DNA from: Astrocystis sublimbata
Taxonomy: Eukaryota; Ascomycota; Sordariomycetes; Xylariales; Xylariaceae
Assembly (NCBI GenBank): GCA_022453515.1
Contig: JAJNNY010000024.1
Span: 186,001-250,000 of the forward strand
Length of the DNA: 64,000 bases
Direction: 5' to 3'
Shown: piece by piece, positions 1,195 through 31,298 of the stretch
Layout: every line of letters starts with the position of its first letter
How positions within the stretch are numbered: the first letter of the stretch is position 1
Notes under the pieces: model-generated
The model's database searches: none
What the model saw: the letters and a program-made list of their open reading frames with translations, nothing else
Told to the model about the DNA's origin: nothing
Made by a program: the position numbers and the translations under genes

Positions 1195-2038
1195 TCAAAA
1201 GGGCTCGAATGGTGGGTAGGGCAGTTTCCCGTCTTCTTTGTCCTCGTCGGCCCATCGCGATCTCGGATACCAGGTTGGTTTTTCATCCTGGGTAGCCGGA
1301 TGTCCGGGGAGACGGAGCTTCAAGTTCGGGAGGCCGAACGGGTTTTCCATGCTGCCTATCGTAAGAATAGACGCGAGAATGTCCTCCTGCAATGTCCCCT
1401 TCTCCACCTTTGGGCATTGATGCCCGGGGATGGTGATGGTCATCGTTGGGCTCTTTACATTCGACTTGTTGTTGGTGGTGTCCTTCTGCGACTTCTGCTG
1501 GTCTTGGGCCTCAGCTTCTTGTTTTCTCTTCTCTCTCAACTTCGCCGCCGCGGCCTCTTGCTCTTCCCTACTTGGCTCCGGGTAGGGATGCAGTTTCGAC
1601 AGCGAACGCTTCTGGATCTGGGACAGCGGTGCCGGCCCCGATCTTATCGCGCTGGCGCGTACGGGCGCTGGGACAACCTTGCTGGAGACCGAGGCTTGGG
1701 ACCGCTTCGCGATTGCCGGGGGTATCGAGCTTGCCTGCCAGTCCTCGGTGACAGGCTGTGCCGGGGGGCTTGTGCTATCGGTGGTGGTCACGGAGTCGGC
1801 AATGACGGGACGCTTCGGCTGCACCGATGGGCAATTCTGGTAAATGGTTGGGTTGGGCATCTCGAAAGCCATCCATGAGATACCTCGCACAGCGGTGGCC
1901 TGGATGAAAGCAGGCGTGGTTAGCTATGGAAAACGCAGGCGGGCATTGGCACCCGAGACATACTTGATCCGCTGCGGCGAGTCTGTAGAGACTGCCAACA
2001 GTGCTTGGGCGAGCCCTGACGCGGGCCAACACACTCAT
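1195..2038 (-). CDS. Unrecognised 259-aa protein, two exons, possible mitochondrial presequence
   Basis: Exons on the minus strand are 2038-1964 (25 codons) and 1899-1195. The intron 1963-1900 has donor GTATGT, branch-like GCTAAC and acceptor TTTCATCCAG, phase 0. The join gives a start MSVLARVRARPSTVGSLYRL, an Arg-rich, acid-free amphipathic N-terminus that could be a mitochondrial import signal (inference). The middle is low-complexity, Ser/Pro/Thr-rich, followed by a charged Glu/Lys/Gln helix. The C-terminal third (from about TMTITIPGHQCPK to PYPPFEPF) looks the most conserved. The long plus-strand frame 1174-1878 is its antisense shadow. I do not recognise the family. Confidence 0.6.
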
Positions 2039-24604: not shown

Positions 24605-27600
24605 CTAATATACCTTGAAGAGCCATTCCGGAAACCTGACTTCAACCGTTGCTTCAAGTTGAGTTCCATCTGCAGATGCGTCGTTCACCACTCTTTCCAT
24701 CACATGCCGTGCCTCCTTTAGGATGCCTATGAAAGGGTGCCCATCTTTTGCTGTATTCTCCATTCCCCGAATCGTCTCGTTACATATGTCTATACTCTTC
24801 CGAAGTTTTCCTTGTCGCTCATAACACCTTGCTAGCTCAACCATCGACACTATCCTATCTGGATGGAAGTCGTGGCTTCGTGATGACATGTCTCTTTGGT
24901 CGTGTATCAGATTTGTCAGTATTTTTTCGGCTTCATTGTAACGTTCTTGCTGATTCAGCACTATAACCGCTGGAGTCAGTAATTGCCTTTTATAGTAAAA
25001 GAACTGTTTGTAAAACGGATGTTTACAGGTGCCTCGGGGATATAGATACCTATTACGGCAATATATGCTCCCGAGACTTGCTAGAAGGGAGGATGAATGA
25101 CTTTAGGGGTCCCATACTGGTAGCAAGGATTTGCTTCCCGAAGAGAACGCCGATATGGCTGGCGCTCACAGGTTTGTTGCGCTCTACAATAGCAAGACAT
25201 CCTGTGAGCACCCTTTCTGCTTGCTCATAATGTCCTTGAGCTCCAAGAACTATAGCCATATTGCCCAATGCCATCAGAGTCCAAGGCGCTTCCTTGCCCA
25301 TTTTTGCCTTCCTTGTTGCAACGACCTCTCTCATAAGTTGTAGCGCAGGGCTCAACAGATCTTGGTCGTCCATAAGGCAAGAGGCACGAGCGAGATTCTC
25401 TTTGGCGTAGGTCGCGAGGAGATGTTCATTTCCCAGGAGTTCTCTCATCCCTTTGACGGCCTCGGAAAGAAGCTCAAAAGCCTCGAGTTTATCTTCTTTT
25501 CTGTAGAACTTCATGACTGTGTTTCCGAGATTGTTCATTGCCTCTAGAGTATCGACATGATTCGTACCCAAGGCTTTTTTCAGGCCACCCACAACTTCAA
25601 CCTGCAGCTTTCTAGCAGCATTGTACCGGCCCTGCTGCCACAATGTGACGCTAAGCTTGTGCAATGCCCTCAATGTGTCGGGGTGCTCGCGACCGAGATA
25701 CTCTTCACATGTTGTCGCGATATTCTGTTGGAGATCGAGCGCTTCGTCAACCTTTCCCTGCTCCCAATACACGGCAGCAAGTGCTGTCTGGGCAGCTCTG
25801 GTACGTGGGCTCCCCAAGCCCAGAGTTGAGGTAAGAGAGGCGACCACTTCGGCGAACAGCTGCTGGGCTTTTCGAAAATCCCCACATTGCGCATAAACGA
25901 GACCAAACTTTGCAGACATCCGCACACGATGCGCATTGACAGGGTATACCTTCATCAACCGAGGAAGCCGAGACTTATGAGATCTCAGGTCGACCTTGGT
26001 ATTAATTTCCGCACGACATGTCTGTATATGGTCAATATGTGGAAAGAGACTAGCATGGTGCAGCTCATCCTCTGTTCCTGTTAAAGGGGGCAGAAGTATC
26101 GATGACGCTATTGTCTGACTGGCAATATCGGCCCAGAGGGCTTGGTATCCAAGTTTCATGCGAGGACGATCTCTCGCCCACTTGTGTACGACCGGGTCTT
26201 ATGGATACAATTCTTCGTTAGTAATTAGTTAACCTTGAGGGTCGTGACTTCAGCGCATGTGTACTGCATACGGTGAATGCAAGTGGAAACGCGACATGTA
26301 CAAGGTATTATGCTCTCCAGAGCTGCTCAAATGAAATGTTGCTTACGCATCGTATAGGTCTCCCTATTCTCATTGTAATAGATGAGCGACAATTTCTCCA
26401 ATTCCCTCAGTGCACCACGAATGCGATCCTCTCTCGAGGCTAGGCCCAACATTTGTCGACCATCACGGAGTACCGATGGTAAGGGGGGAGGCATGTTTGC
26501 CCCCACGACGTATGTGAAAATAGGTTCAAGTATTTGTCGTACTTTTTCGCCTAAGATTGACTGTTTCTGAGGAGACCTTGACCCTTCCACCGTGGCGACA
26601 GTCTTCTCGGACTCGGCTTCCAGCTGAATATTCCGTAGCGCTTTCGTTAAGATCTTGGGTGACAGGTCATCTCGATATAGAAAGGCAAAGACGTGAAGTA
26701 ATTCAATTGCGTCAGCAGCCTCGGTTCGGTCCTGCTTTTGTTCGAGGCGCTGATAACAGATCTCAAAAGTTGTCCAGATCGCTGCTTCCTGGCTTGTAGC
26801 ATGCTGTACCTTTTCGTTGTCACGGAGGCTCTCCCAGTACCGTTTATACCATCCAAGATAATCATGCAAGCTACATAGCCTGTCTCTGATTGCAGCCCCG
26901 GCATGTACTATGGCCAGAGCGAGGTGGCCAAGTACTTCTGTGATGTTCAACGCCAAACTCTCCCACAATGGCGCCCATGGCCTGGGGAGAGACGAGGCTT
27001 TCAACAGTAAACTGGATGCCTCATCAAAACGAAGACCGCTAAAATCATAATACGCAGGCTCGACATTTCCCAGGACTCTTATTGCCCGGTTTCTTGTTGT
27101 GATCAGAATATGACCACCGATACCTTTTGGGAAATAATTCTCAACTTCAACGTCGTTGTCGTCGGCGTTATCGAACAGGAGCAACCACTGCTCCTTAACC
27201 GTAGAAAGCCAGTCTAGAGCGGCGTCGGCATTGGGGTGTCTCCCTGCGAGCTTGGCTATGTCACCAAGACTTTTCTTGATGCTTTTTACCGAGCTTCCAT
27301 CGATGGAGAATACTCCCCAGAATCTGATGACATAGTGTTGGTGAGCCCATTAGATATAGTTCAAAGTAAAAATTGTACTTACCTTTCTCGGTTGTCTTCC
27401 GCGAACTTGCAGCAGAATTGTGTCTTTCCAGACCCGCCAAGGCCGTAGACAACAAACCGCCTCTGCATCTGGTTTCGTAATGGCTCAGGTGATTGAATGA
27501 AACCATGCCTGAGTTCTTGCAGAAGTTTCTCTCTCCCTGTGAAGATGCTACTCACTGCTTGGGGGGTCTTGAAGTATTTGTTCGTTGTGGGTGGCGCTAT

Positions 27601-28367
27601 TAACTTAGTAGCATTGGAAATTGTTGTCTCTAGGTCTCTCAGGGCCGACAAAGCTTCCTTGTCATACCTGGCATCACCTGTCGAGCTGGGAAACTCGCCA
27701 AAGCCGGAGATGTGTGACTGTATTATCCCTAGCTGAGCTGCGAGGTTTTCGAACGACTTCACTGTGTTGTCTTTTGACCTTTGCTCTTCTTCCCTGAAGC
27801 AGGAGAGCTTGACGTCAGTCAACTTATAGTGCCTTACAAGCCTTAGGGAAGTCGAGGCGCTACATACCGATTGATGATAGCTAGAACAAGTTGCATTGAA
27901 CTATGATATAAAGAGAGCTCACTTCGACATTGTTGTAGGTCTTGCTTTTTGGATCGCTTCCTATGAGCCTTTACCAGTTTATCGGCATGTTTCGGCAGGC
28001 CTTGAGGAGGTGGTTGAGATATGTCTATCAAAATATCGTATATTCTCTGGACGATGAGACGGCAGTGACTGATTATTTGAGCTATGTCTTGCCACAGACC
28101 TTGCCACAGACCTTGCGTAGCATCGGGGGACCGGCCCCCGCTCCTTTTCTCTGAATGCTGCCTTTGTGACCTCGAAAAGCTTCTATCGTACGAAGCGTTA
28201 ACAATGTTGCAGACTCCCTCGAGCATGCGTGCTTCTTCTATCAAGGAGTCGAGTTCGCCTTCAATGGTGCCGCTGCTTCTTTTCAGTTCTCTAGCATATT
28301 TCACTAGCCGCACAGTTATGTCTAATAGGCCGGCTGTAGCGGAGACTACAGAGTAAATATCTGCCAT
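24605..28367 (-). CDS. NLR-type STAND receptor: HeLo-like N-terminus, NB-ARC, TPR repeats
   Basis: Five exons: 28367-27868, 27793-27383, 27323-26347, 26197-25118 and 24960-24605, 1107 aa. Residues 1-165 (MADIYSVVSATAGLLDITVR...) resemble the HeLo-like N-terminal domain of fungal STAND proteins. The NB-ARC core shows P-loop GLGGSGKT at 284-291, Walker B LLLFDNADD near 350, the sensor HILITTRNRA, GHLALAIVHAGAAI in place of GLPLA, and VHPVVHKWARDR near 630, the fungal equivalent of the MHD region. From about 680 to the end come kinesin-light-chain-like TPRs (for example LGREHPDTLRALHKLSVTLW). Such proteins sense non-self or pathogens and can trigger regulated cell death in fungi (family knowledge). 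All four introns have consensus sites, and the frame is intact with no sign of decay. The last intron is an introner-like copy. Confidence 0.9.
24961..25117 (-). mobile_element. Introner-like element, copy 3 (last NLR intron, 157 nt)
   Basis: Read on the minus strand it starts GTATGGGACCCCT and ends CAGCGGTTATAG. It shares ordered blocks with the two P450 introns at 29565-29722 and 29787-29925: GTCATTNATNCYCCC, GCAAGTCTCGGGAGCATA, CCCCGAGGCACCT, and TAAAAGGCAATTACTGACTC just before the acceptor. It sits in phase 1 between TPR-coding exons. Removing it joins ILAT to MLNQQERYNEAEKIL, a natural TPR helix, so it behaves as a functional intron. Confidence 0.8.
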
Positions 28368-29298
28368 TGTGTCATCAAGATGACAATAGTGACAATGGCA
28401 CCACAGCTGTTCAGCAGAAGCAGAGGCACATAAGTAACGCCCAAAGGTTCGAGAATCTATGTTGTATGATTCAGAGTAAAACAAACAAAATTGTGCGAAT
28501 ATCTGGGCATTTCGGCACGCCGCACTGATGTGTTGGTGATGGAGTAAGGCTCAATTAATCTGGAGTCTAGACAGCGGATCCCGGAAGGAAAAGGAAACTG
28601 GAAATCAGATTACTGCTGCCGACCGTCTTTCATTTTACCTGCAGTATCACTAACTAGGCCAGAGTTGGTGCTGAATCCTGATGGCTTACATGTATGCAGC
28701 CATCAATATGGCTAGGAAACATGCTGGCATGATACTGTATCATGTATGCCGCCGAAATGCCAAGTCGCACTAGGTGAGGAAATATAGCCAATTAAACTCG
28801 GCATTTTCATCCTGATATACTTTTGCATGTCAGAGGCGGCTGTGAATGACAGCAGCTACGGGGTGGTAGTCGGTGTACCTACCAGCTGATGGGGATCTTC
28901 ACTCCCAAAGTCTATCCCTCTGTCAGCACAGTTCGCAAGGGTTTTGAGAAGGATGGTGCAGTGAATGCATTAGCCCCACAGACAGAGCAAATCACATATC
29001 TCCTCATTCGTGGGCGCATTCGAGGGTGGTTACACCTCCTGATGCAAGCAAGGGTCAGAATGGCATTCACAATGTTTGCACCTGAACAAGGGAATCAAAG
29101 GGATATCGACAGTGTTTTCTACTTGGTAGGCAATGCATTAAAGTGTCGGCAATTTGACTCCTGCACCCCATGTTCCAACTTATAAGCCCTCTCTTCTCGC
29201 CTTTCCCTTCTCAGGACCGGGTAATTTGTTAACGGTAGACTGCATCAATACCAGCATCCAATATCATCTACTCAACACTAATTGTGCACTGGACAATC
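28368..29298. other. Divergent promoter region between the NLR and P450 genes
   Basis: About 930 bases separate the start codons of two genes transcribed away from each other. No credible ORF (the frame 28889-29185 has random composition). Shared regulation is possible but not shown. Confidence 0.45.
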
Positions 29299-31298
29299 AT
29301 GGCAATACTGCAGTTAGCTAGTATTGCCTCGCTTGTGGTGGGCGCTTTCTGGCTGTATCAGAATGTCTGGCTCTTTGTACGTATACCTCAGGACACGCAT
29401 GCACTCACACACTAATGAATAATTGCCTTAGCCATCGCGCCACAACCATGGCGAAGCAAGGGGTTGCGGGCGGATCCATTTACTCGCATCATCATGGAAG
29501 CTTCCCTTTGGTATTGATAAGTTGTTCAAATCACTTGAAGCGGAGAGGGATCGACGACTCCCCTGTATGCAACTCCTGGAGTCATTTATTCCCCCTTATG
29601 GCAAGTCTCGGGAGCATAAATTGCTCTAACAGGCCTCTTTACTCCCGGGACACCTACAAACCACTGTTTCATAAGCGATTTATTCTACCATAAAAGGCAA
29701 TTACTGACTCCGGCGGTTGCAGTGCTTTCACTTGAAGATCATGAGCGCTATGGCGACACATATGGGCAATACTCTGGCGGGATGTTGTATGTGTTCCCTG
29801 GCGTCATTTATACCCCCACCTGGCAAGTCTCGGAGGCATAAATTACCCCCCACCAGGTTTCTATGCCCCCGAGACACCTGCGAGCCCCAGTTCTATGAGC
29901 AATTACTGACTTCTGCCGGTTGAAGTACTATTCTGACTAGAGATCCTCGCAATATTGCATCGCTCTTATCTGGACAATCCTCCAAGTTTGACTATGGCAA
30001 TCTTCGACGAATCTGCTTCGGATGCTTACTCGGGGAAGGTATTTTCACTGAGAATGGTCAAGAGTGGAAGAGATCAAGAAAACTGCTAGCCTCAGAGCTA
30101 CAGAAACCCAAGTTCCCGCCTTTGAGTATCATCGAGTCTCACTTCCAAGACATGTTGCGGGCAGTTGCGCCCCCGGGCGAAACACCGTCGCTTAAAGATG
30201 TGCGATCCATCTTTTACAATTATACTCTCGATACAGGGACAGAGCTGTTTCTTGGCGTCTCTACAAATCTCCTTGCTTTGCCCTCGTCAGTCGACAATGA
30301 AGGCAAACGTTTTTCGCTAGCATTCAACAAAGCACTACGATGGCTTGCAACCAGGGAGCGATTCAAGACATTCGCGTGGCTTGTTACAGGACCGGAACTA
30401 TGGTCACTATGCAGCACTGCTCGTGACTCGTTGGAAAACATGATCATCGAGGCTCAAAGGCGAGAGATGGGGTCTACGGCTACACCATTCACTGATTTCC
30501 TCGGGCGGACAACCGATATAGGAAAGGCTAGGGATGAGCTTATGAGTCTCTTATTTGCGGCTCGCGATTCAAGTGCAAGCCTACTATGTTGGATTGTTTA
30601 TGCATTGGCCCGGGAACCTGAAGTATTTGCAAGGCTCGAAGAGGAGGTCCTATCAATCGTCGGCGACGACTCCAAGGTTCCACCAACCGACTCTGACTTG
30701 ACGAGAATGCAGTATCTGGATGATGTCGTGAACGAATGTCTTCGTCTTTTTCCTGCAGTCCCAATTAATGGTCGAATCTGCAACACCACAACAACCTTAC
30801 CTGCTGGTGGAGGTAGATCTGGTGAAGAACCAATCTTAGTACCAAAAGGGGCGCTGGTATGCTTCTCAACATTCGGCTGTCAACGATCAACAAAGTACTA
30901 CGGGGCAGATGCGATGGAGTTCCGACCAGAGAGATGGCGCGAGGTTGACGTGAAGACTAGAACACGCGACTATACATTCCATCCTTTCATTGGCGGACCG
31001 CGGAAGTGCCTAGGAGGTGAGCCAACTGTTCTGTTCAGTAATGACTACTACTCCCAAGTCCTTTCTCTAGGGTCTCGGCCTTTTGCAGAAGCGAATGCTA
31101 ACTGAGTTTCGCATAGAGGATTTTGCCTTGAAGCTAATAAAATACACGGTCTGCCGTCTGGTTCAATGTTTCGGCGCGATCCGAGTCGACAATTTCGATT
31201 CTCAAGATACATCTTACTGGCAGGAAAAGATCAAATATCAGATTGGACTGACGATGTCCCCTGATGATGGTGTTCATGTTGAACTCACTCGTAGGTGA
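29299..31298 (+). CDS. Cytochrome P450, CYP52-like (alkane/fatty-acid hydroxylase type)
   Basis: Exons 29299-29376, 29432-29564, 29723-29786, 29926-31016 and 31117-31298, 515 aa. An N-terminal membrane anchor is visible at 5-26 (QLASIASLVVGAFWLYQNVW). Exons 2-4 give the typical CYP52-like N-terminal half (PFGIDKLFK, RYGDTYGQYSGGM, LLGEGIFTENGQEWKRSRKL). The I helix is AARDSSASLL near 303-312 (Ser where Thr is usual), ExxR is ECLR at 362-365, and the haem loop PFIGGPRKCLG has Cys near 453. The last exon adds EDFALKLIKYTVCRLVQCF, the expected L helix. It is an ER-bound monooxygenase; CYP52-type enzymes often omega-hydroxylate alkanes or fatty acids, but the substrate here is inference only. Introns 2 and 3 are copies of one element. 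Confidence 0.92.
29565..29722 (+). mobile_element. Introner-like element, copy 1 (P450 intron 2, 158 nt)
   Basis: Begins GTATGCAACTCCT and ends CGGCGGTTGCAG. Inside are GTCATTTATTCCCCC, GCAAGTCTCGGGAGCATA, CTCCCGGGACACCT and TAAAAGGCAATTACTGACTC. Phase 1. Removing it joins exon 2 (RRLP) to exon 3 (LSLEDHERYGDTYG), the expected P450 reading. The ends of the shared sequence coincide with the splice sites, unlike a transposon that has landed inside an older intron. Confidence 0.82.
29787..29925 (+). mobile_element. Introner-like element, copy 2 (P450 intron 3, 139 nt)
   Basis: Begins GTATGTGTTCCCT and ends GCCGGTTGAAG. Shares GTCATTTATACCCCC, GCAAGTCTCGGAGGCATA, CCCCCGAGACACCT and GCAATTACTGAC with copies 1 and 3, but lacks about 20 bases before the branch region. 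An inverted repeat of 14 bases (29827-29840 against 29862-29875, one mismatch) would fold a stem. Phase 2; removal joins GGM to FTILTRDPRNIASLL, the normal P450 continuation. Confidence 0.82.

Follow-up and report, generated by a model that had tools for sequence, protein, structure and literature searches.

Here, we examine a 64,000-nucleotide (nt) stretch of the Astrocystis sublimbata genome (contig JAJNNY010000024.1, positions 186,001 to 250,000; the whole stretch is called the window), in which three closely similar introns interrupt two unrelated genes, a P450 gene and a TPR-repeat gene. We hold with high confidence that the three segments are members of a single introner family: spliceosomal introns, each about 157 nt long, whose copies have spread through genes as whole units. 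Members of the family have intron-exact ends, are inserted mostly in the sense orientation and with the host reading frame preserved, have been active recently, fold back on themselves, and are bordered by exon bases that differ from one subfamily to the next.

Three related introns in two host genes

The three introns align from GT to AG with a mean column identity of 81%, an end-to-end match that bears out both the coordinates and the shared blocks assigned to them in a sequence-only reading of the window. The second P450 intron has a length of 139 nt because about 20 nt are missing upstream of its branch-point block. Once both segments are cut out, the P450 frame is continuous in translation (...LEDHERYGDTYGQYSGGMFTILTRDP...), and removal of the minus-strand segment leaves a continuous TPR protein (...GKQILATMLNQQERYNEAE...); these translations return phases 1 and 2 for the P450 introns and phase 1 for the TPR gene intron, just as had been claimed. 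Exon pieces match p450 (PF00067) and TPR families in Pfam. The name NLR that had been given to the second gene comes only from its TPR array and a P-loop-like motif seen by eye, and two other pieces of that gene matched no Pfam family. The features of the two genes are listed with their evidence in brackets; subfamilies are named by their ends.

29565..29722, plus strand: introner copy of subfamily F1 in the P450 gene, phase 1, reading GTATGC...GGTTGCAG and followed by T (alignment, profile, translation, fold)
29787..29925, plus strand: introner copy of subfamily F1b, with an internal deletion, in the same P450 gene, phase 2 (alignment, profile, translation)
24961..25117, minus strand: introner copy of subfamily F1 in the NLR-like/TPR gene, phase 1, +1 exon base T (alignment, profile, translation, Pfam)
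29568..29584, plus strand: near-terminal inverted repeat, 5' arm TGCAACTCCTGGAGTCA (fold; letters checked)
29705..29721, plus strand: near-terminal inverted repeat, 3' arm TGACTCCGGCGGTTGCA, overlapping a branch-point-like CTGAC (fold; letters checked; branch point by eye)
29432..29564, plus strand: P450 exon 5' of the first introner (translation)
29723..29786, plus strand: P450 exon of 64 nt separating the two introners (translation)
29926..31015, plus strand: P450 exon 3' of the second introner, PF00067, 3' boundary provisional (translation, Pfam)
25118..26198, minus strand: TPR-repeat exon 5' of the introner, 5' boundary provisional (translation, Pfam)
24605..24960, minus strand: last TPR exon, from the introner to the stop codon (translation, Pfam)

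A genome-wide family with intron-exact ends

A genome-wide search and a profile model, two of the checks proposed in the sequence-only reading, both recover many further copies. Searching the 42.6-Mb assembly (189 contigs) with each of the three introns returned at least 41, at least 42 and at least 40 matches. A 22-mer of the family, allowed up to three mismatches, matched 86 places (44 and 42 by strand) and its reversed control none, which excludes chance; the clustered matches amount to 111 copies on 42 contigs, 58 on one strand and 53 on the other. A pattern for the 3' end matched 74 places, 27 of which lie more than 60 nt from all 111 clustered copies. Four of these extra places were fetched: three are in-frame introns, in genes recognised by eye as encoding a RecQ-type helicase, an AA9 enzyme and an amino-acid permease, and the fourth (L089) is apparently full length.

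For closer analysis we fetched 80 of 104 regions, containing 85 of the 111 clustered copies, and built a sense-only profile of 157 positions running from GT to AG. Within the 80 regions it gives 100 matches, 95 of them above 50 bits and 98 with both splice sites. The 94 copies that exceed 50 bits and also have both splice sites fall by their ends into classes F1 (51 copies), F2 (10), F3 (9), F4 (8), F1b (7) and 'other' (9). Exons beside the copies match a wide range of families (P450, TPR, 6PGD, GH43, GH115, S1/RRP5, amino-acid permease, arginase and Na/H exchanger); HET-domain genes and a STAND-type gene are also present in the genome, as would be expected of a filamentous ascomycete. Eighteen loci hold more than one profile match, always on the same strand except for a weak 20.7-bit match (L023:1979-2094, plus strand) that lies opposite the main copy and is the sole mixed-strand case. 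At one locus (L081, sense 1940-2085 and 2086-2242) two introners that are 73% identical to each other stand head to tail with no intervening exon, GCAG running directly into GTATGC, and at another (L077, sense 1601-1890) a few nt lead from the first acceptor to the second donor, perhaps making one compound intron.

Alignment and profile agree that similarity begins at GT and stops at AG across copies. The best coding phase is the same on the left and the right in 75 of the 98 copies with both splice sites, and under scoring that tolerates differences in exon length the in-frame join is the best of the three in 79/94 copies, compared with 28% of 4000 random sites. For 85 of the 94, the sense direction outscores the antisense as coding sequence, and open frames of at least 150 nt stand on both sides of 53% of copies, against 13% in the control. 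These results are hard to reconcile with a repeat that lies in introns by accident, or with an assembly artefact, whose ends merely resemble splice sites: nothing except the general abundance of repeats speaks for such an origin, and similarity bounded by GT and AG, the excess of in-frame joins, and the scatter of the clustered copies over contigs and strands all speak against it. We regard it as scarcely tenable.

Pfam was also run on pieces of 25 copies, with the exons scanned separately. A single domain continues across the site at three loci (L013, L041 and L055) and, with overlap, at two more (L021 and L074); the profile positions meeting at the junction are 14 and 16 for 6PGD (one split codon), 241 and 246 for an amino-acid permease, 127 and 124 for arginase, and 162 and 170 for a Na/H exchanger. 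The other 20 of the 25 copies have one-sided domains, different domains or none.

Homologous proteins and genomic paralogues bear on how the copies sit in their genes. At the L025 copy, in a GH43 xylosidase, the left and right exons align to 21ap_A up to residue 280 and from residue 282, respectively, and a single split codon lies between them. In RRP5 (L060, subfamily F4) the left exon reaches residue 836 of 6rxy_Cz, where both proteins have glutamine, and the right exon aligns from its second residue, at 838. As 21ap_A and 6rxy_Cz are proteins, they attest that residues were neither gained nor lost, but they do not show that the corresponding genes are intron-free. Two permease paralogues align without gaps to residues 1-85 (255 nt) and 3-85 (249 nt) of the query, and both thereby pass the L092 intron site, which follows residue 81; the one whose codons were read retains the TAC tyrosine codon immediately after the site. 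A 6PGD paralogue is likewise uninterrupted at the L041 site and for several codons on, its own intron-like break lying elsewhere. Intron replacement can, as is generally known, make unrelated introns alike, and gene conversion or recombination might thus have homogenised old introns at old positions with no insertion at all. The paralogues whose sequence is uninterrupted at the L092 and L041 sites argue against this explanation, as do exon borders specific to each subfamily (see below), which are unexpected for replaced introns, and we judge it very improbable. The many host genes, splice-exact ends, sense orientation, frame-keeping and empty paralogue sites instead support the introner-like class to which the sequence-only reading had assigned these copies, as introns of unrelated genes.

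Copies of very different age coexist. Compared pair by pair, 93 copies are 73% identical at the median and 100% at the maximum, the latter value reached by the copies at L039 and L041, which are identical at 157/157 positions and whose 200-nt flanks are only 23% and 25% alike; the L041 host is 6PGD-like, and the L039 host is weakly GNAT-like (E 0.007, under the curated cut-off). Two identical copies in different genes mean that some of the spread is recent, and the earlier description of the family as recent thus applies to this pair, the bulk of the copies being older. In a permease gene (L092:282-340), a 59-nt intron consists of both introner ends with the middle deleted. Its size is that of an ordinary intron, and it shows a route from an introner copy to an ordinary-sized intron.

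Exon borders, foldback and the route of spread

The subfamilies differ jointly in their own ends and in the exon bases that adjoin them. In F1 (GTATGC...GGTTGCAG), T follows the acceptor in 49/51 copies (p 3e-29 against the coding background), with weaker preferences for G at +2 (30/51), A at -1 (25/51) and C at -2 (22/51). Of the genome-wide occurrences of the exact 14-mer end TCCAGCGGTTGCAG, 20 have T as the next base and two have another base, the reversed controls giving 0 and 1. The acceptor is followed by A in 8 of 10 copies of F2 (GTATGT...GCTGAAG) and by GT in 8 of 9 copies of F3 (...CGGTATAG), and AG precedes the donor in all 8 copies of F4 (GTCAGT...ATAAATAG); F1b has T in 4 of 7, and the nine copies of the 'other' class are mixed. 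Intron phase is biased as well, F1 being mostly in phase 1 and F4 in phase 0, which would fit the codon placement of the border bases. The -1 base is G in 10 of the 51 F1 copies, and the unit reads as a single GT-AG intron.

F1 and F2, together 61 of the 94 classed copies, show no frame-keeping target duplication. In 41/51 F1 copies the end of the intron has no base in common with the left exon, and in 50/51 its start has none in common with the right exon; the corresponding counts in F2 are 5/10 and 10/10. A GT target duplication in F1 would remove one base from the mRNA; the frame test, the permease paralogues, the GH43 homologue and the mostly absent sharing of end bases all argue against one. 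For F3 and F4 (17 of the 94 copies) a duplication of 2 bp would leave the same trace as a target requirement of 2 bp, and these copies therefore fit either; a shuffle control, which is blind to a duplication identical in all copies, places them no higher than shuffles. Other sources of the F1 border were considered and set aside. Helitron-type A^T insertion would account for the T in 49 of 51 copies, yet the preceding A occurs in only 25, and in excerpts of PMC5148889 fungal Helitrons have other termini than F1 (published work is cited here and below from excerpts of each paper). Base pairing between the +1 T and base 3 of the intron is found in only 8 of 51 F1 folds, and inheritance of longer exon flanks along lineages is not borne out, intron identity and flank match being uncorrelated (r 0.05, p 0.20).

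One of the two identical 157-nt copies folds to -62 kcal/mol (z -7.0). In this fold nt 4-20 pair with nt 140-156 to form 16 bp from 17-nt arms, the first three bases and the last G stay unpaired, and a second, central hairpin lies inside; by eye, a branch-point-like CTGAC overlaps the 3' arm. The window copy at 29565-29722 folds with z -5.8. Among 84 copies of 130-165 nt drawn from the five named classes, z is below -2 in 59 and the terminal stem reaches at least 8 bp in 65. RNAalifold, run on an alignment (A2) of 80 of these 84 copies, recovers only 3 pairs, in our opinion because the alignment is gappy across subfamilies.

We cautiously favor a model in which new copies arise through an intermediate made from excised intron RNA, with the near-terminal stem holding its two ends together. 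Such an intermediate could enter coding sequence seamlessly where the site shares one or two bases with the intron border, either through joining by microhomology at a break or through reverse splicing into an mRNA that is then reverse-transcribed, and inserted copies would later decay or shrink to ordinary-looking introns. An RNA intermediate has been proposed for fungal introner-like elements (ILEs; PMC3443670, by citation) and for stwintrons (PMC12403724). It is also possible, as a more tentative proposal, that introners choose their insertion sites, through one or two nucleotides of the founder exon joined by microhomology or through base pairing within the intron. If true, this would amount to sequence-directed intron gain in an ascomycete, by one family with blunt (F1, F2) and splice-site-sharing (F3, F4) subfamilies.

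The same ends can be read in terms of DNA transposition. The family would then be a non-autonomous transposon similar to a miniature inverted-repeat transposable element (MITE), with inverted-repeat ends that double as splice sites and a transposase encoded elsewhere, and a 2-bp target duplication (GT or AG) would supply F3 and F4 with one of their splice sites. Near-terminal inverted repeats are indeed present, GT flanks F3 on both sides in 8/9 copies and AG flanks F4 on both sides in 8/8, and terminal inverted repeats (TIRs) and/or target-site duplications (TSDs) are reported in 59.2% of introner families with both features determined, or 78.5% without ascomycetes (PMC9860276, excerpt). This origin does not account for F1 and F2, which lack a frame-keeping duplication, nor for the genic and sense scores of most sampled copies, since a nearly symmetric transposon would be expected between genes too; no autonomous partner was seen, though no search was aimed at one. 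We consider a MITE-like origin unlikely.

Several points weigh against the reading of the family as introners that spread through RNA. The inverted repeats, like the 2-nt repeats bordering F3 and F4, are compatible with a DNA transposon too. Swapping 3' arms within one subfamily leaves pairing unweakened (p 0.52); across subfamilies own arms pair better in 55/84 copies (p 0.002), an advantage that only F1 drives, F1b and F3 pairing better with foreign arms, and the swaps therefore give no sign of selection keeping the stem after insertion. Removal of the copies by the ordinary spliceosome is a prediction from DNA alone, and we infer intron gain from genomic paralogues at two sites, the PDB homologues being uninformative about introns in their own genes. 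The in-frame join is not the best in 15/94 copies; some of these adjoin a second copy or have ends that are displaced or damaged, and a few may be located in noncoding sequence. Finally, 26 of the 111 clustered copies fall outside the regions that were read.

Other repeats and comparison with known systems

With the main family masked, comparison of the loci with one another revealed two more families of repeated introns. Family B (about 140-150 nt, 21 places genome-wide) has short blocks that by eye resemble the main family, and family C (about 115-120 nt, 27 places genome-wide) is by eye unrelated in sequence to either. Some of their copies are placed as follows.

L013:2641-2790, minus strand: family B
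L087:1989-2119 and 1199-1315, plus strand: family B
L038:1927-2034, plus strand: family B
L076:66-186, minus strand: family B
L050:2713-2832, plus strand: family C
L017, about 1147-1259: family C
L056, about 932-1045: family C

Some B and C copies form mirror-image pairs with similar spacing (in G000, C67:4642-4779/13261-13398 with C34:4669-4806/13373-13510, and C16:31694-31807/44917-45030), which suggests large inverted duplications or assembly duplicates. A dispersed repeat adjoining CCTAGGTAGG-like runs (L048:2920-3061 and L049:2820-2969) is not intron-like, and L069:2557-2653 and L078:2249-2344 are a pair of short dispersed repeats.

How genomes come by new introns has long been an unsettled question. 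An RNA route was suggested chiefly by the introners of fungi, since these had been reported to have neither inverted repeats nor target duplications. In the single genome examined here, a recently active family has a near-terminal inverted repeat, its copies differ widely in age and include a remnant of 59 nt, and its border rule yields testable predictions. The sequence-only reading had been unable to name the family, and it remains nameless: Rfam at gathering thresholds gives no match in the window, and by eye the consensus contains neither the 10-nt palindrome of Hypoxylaceae nor the near-terminal repeat of Xylaria as published in the excerpts of PMC8469720 and PMC12403724. As far as tested, the family matches no published introner family, although it may still be identical to one. 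Literature searches on fungal introners, on inverted repeats and target duplications, on ascomycete intron gain and on site preference gave no description of such exon borders among the matches listed.

ILEs of Dothideomycetes were reportedly described by van der Burgt in 2012. Like the family identified here, they are spliceosomal introns, nearly identical to one another, that run in the direction of transcription in many unrelated genes, with a stable RNA fold, decay to ordinary introns, several families per genome and cases of two in one gene (Collemare 2015, PMC4457414; PMC3443670). Compared by description only, they differ in that exon borders specific to subfamilies go unmentioned in the excerpts of these two papers.

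The sister stwintrons and cropped sister introns of Hypoxylaceae and Xylariaceae (PMC8469720, PMC12403724) also resemble our family, in having RNA-pairable inverted repeats a few nt from their ends, in seamless insertion, and in internal deletion to short canonical introns, as at L092. In the same sources, however, they are twin introns that start with GGT and contain a nested internal intron, unlike the single GT-AG introns described here, and the available text of PMC12403724 reports no nucleotide bias in the bordering exons, in contrast to the near-invariant T of F1 (49/51).

According to the part of the PMC9860276 survey available to us, ascomycete introner families have no TIRs or TSDs, whereas the family described here has inverted repeats. 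Such repeats near the ends are shared with the DNA-transposon introners of algae and protists (Huff-type; PMC9860276), and F3 and F4 resemble the co-option of a splice site from a 2-bp duplication in those elements. F1 and F2 differ from them in having no duplication.

In group II introns, base pairing between exon and intron fixes the insertion site by the adjacent exon bases, which differ between lineages. The likeness to our family, in which exon bases beside the intron are tied to lineage, is one of analogy only, as the copies described here have GT-AG ends and a fungal-type branch point, with no Rfam match in the window. Set against the ascomycete introners described in the excerpts cited above, the family departs from them in two features: a near-terminal inverted repeat with 17-nt arms, and exon-border bases that are specific to each subfamily.

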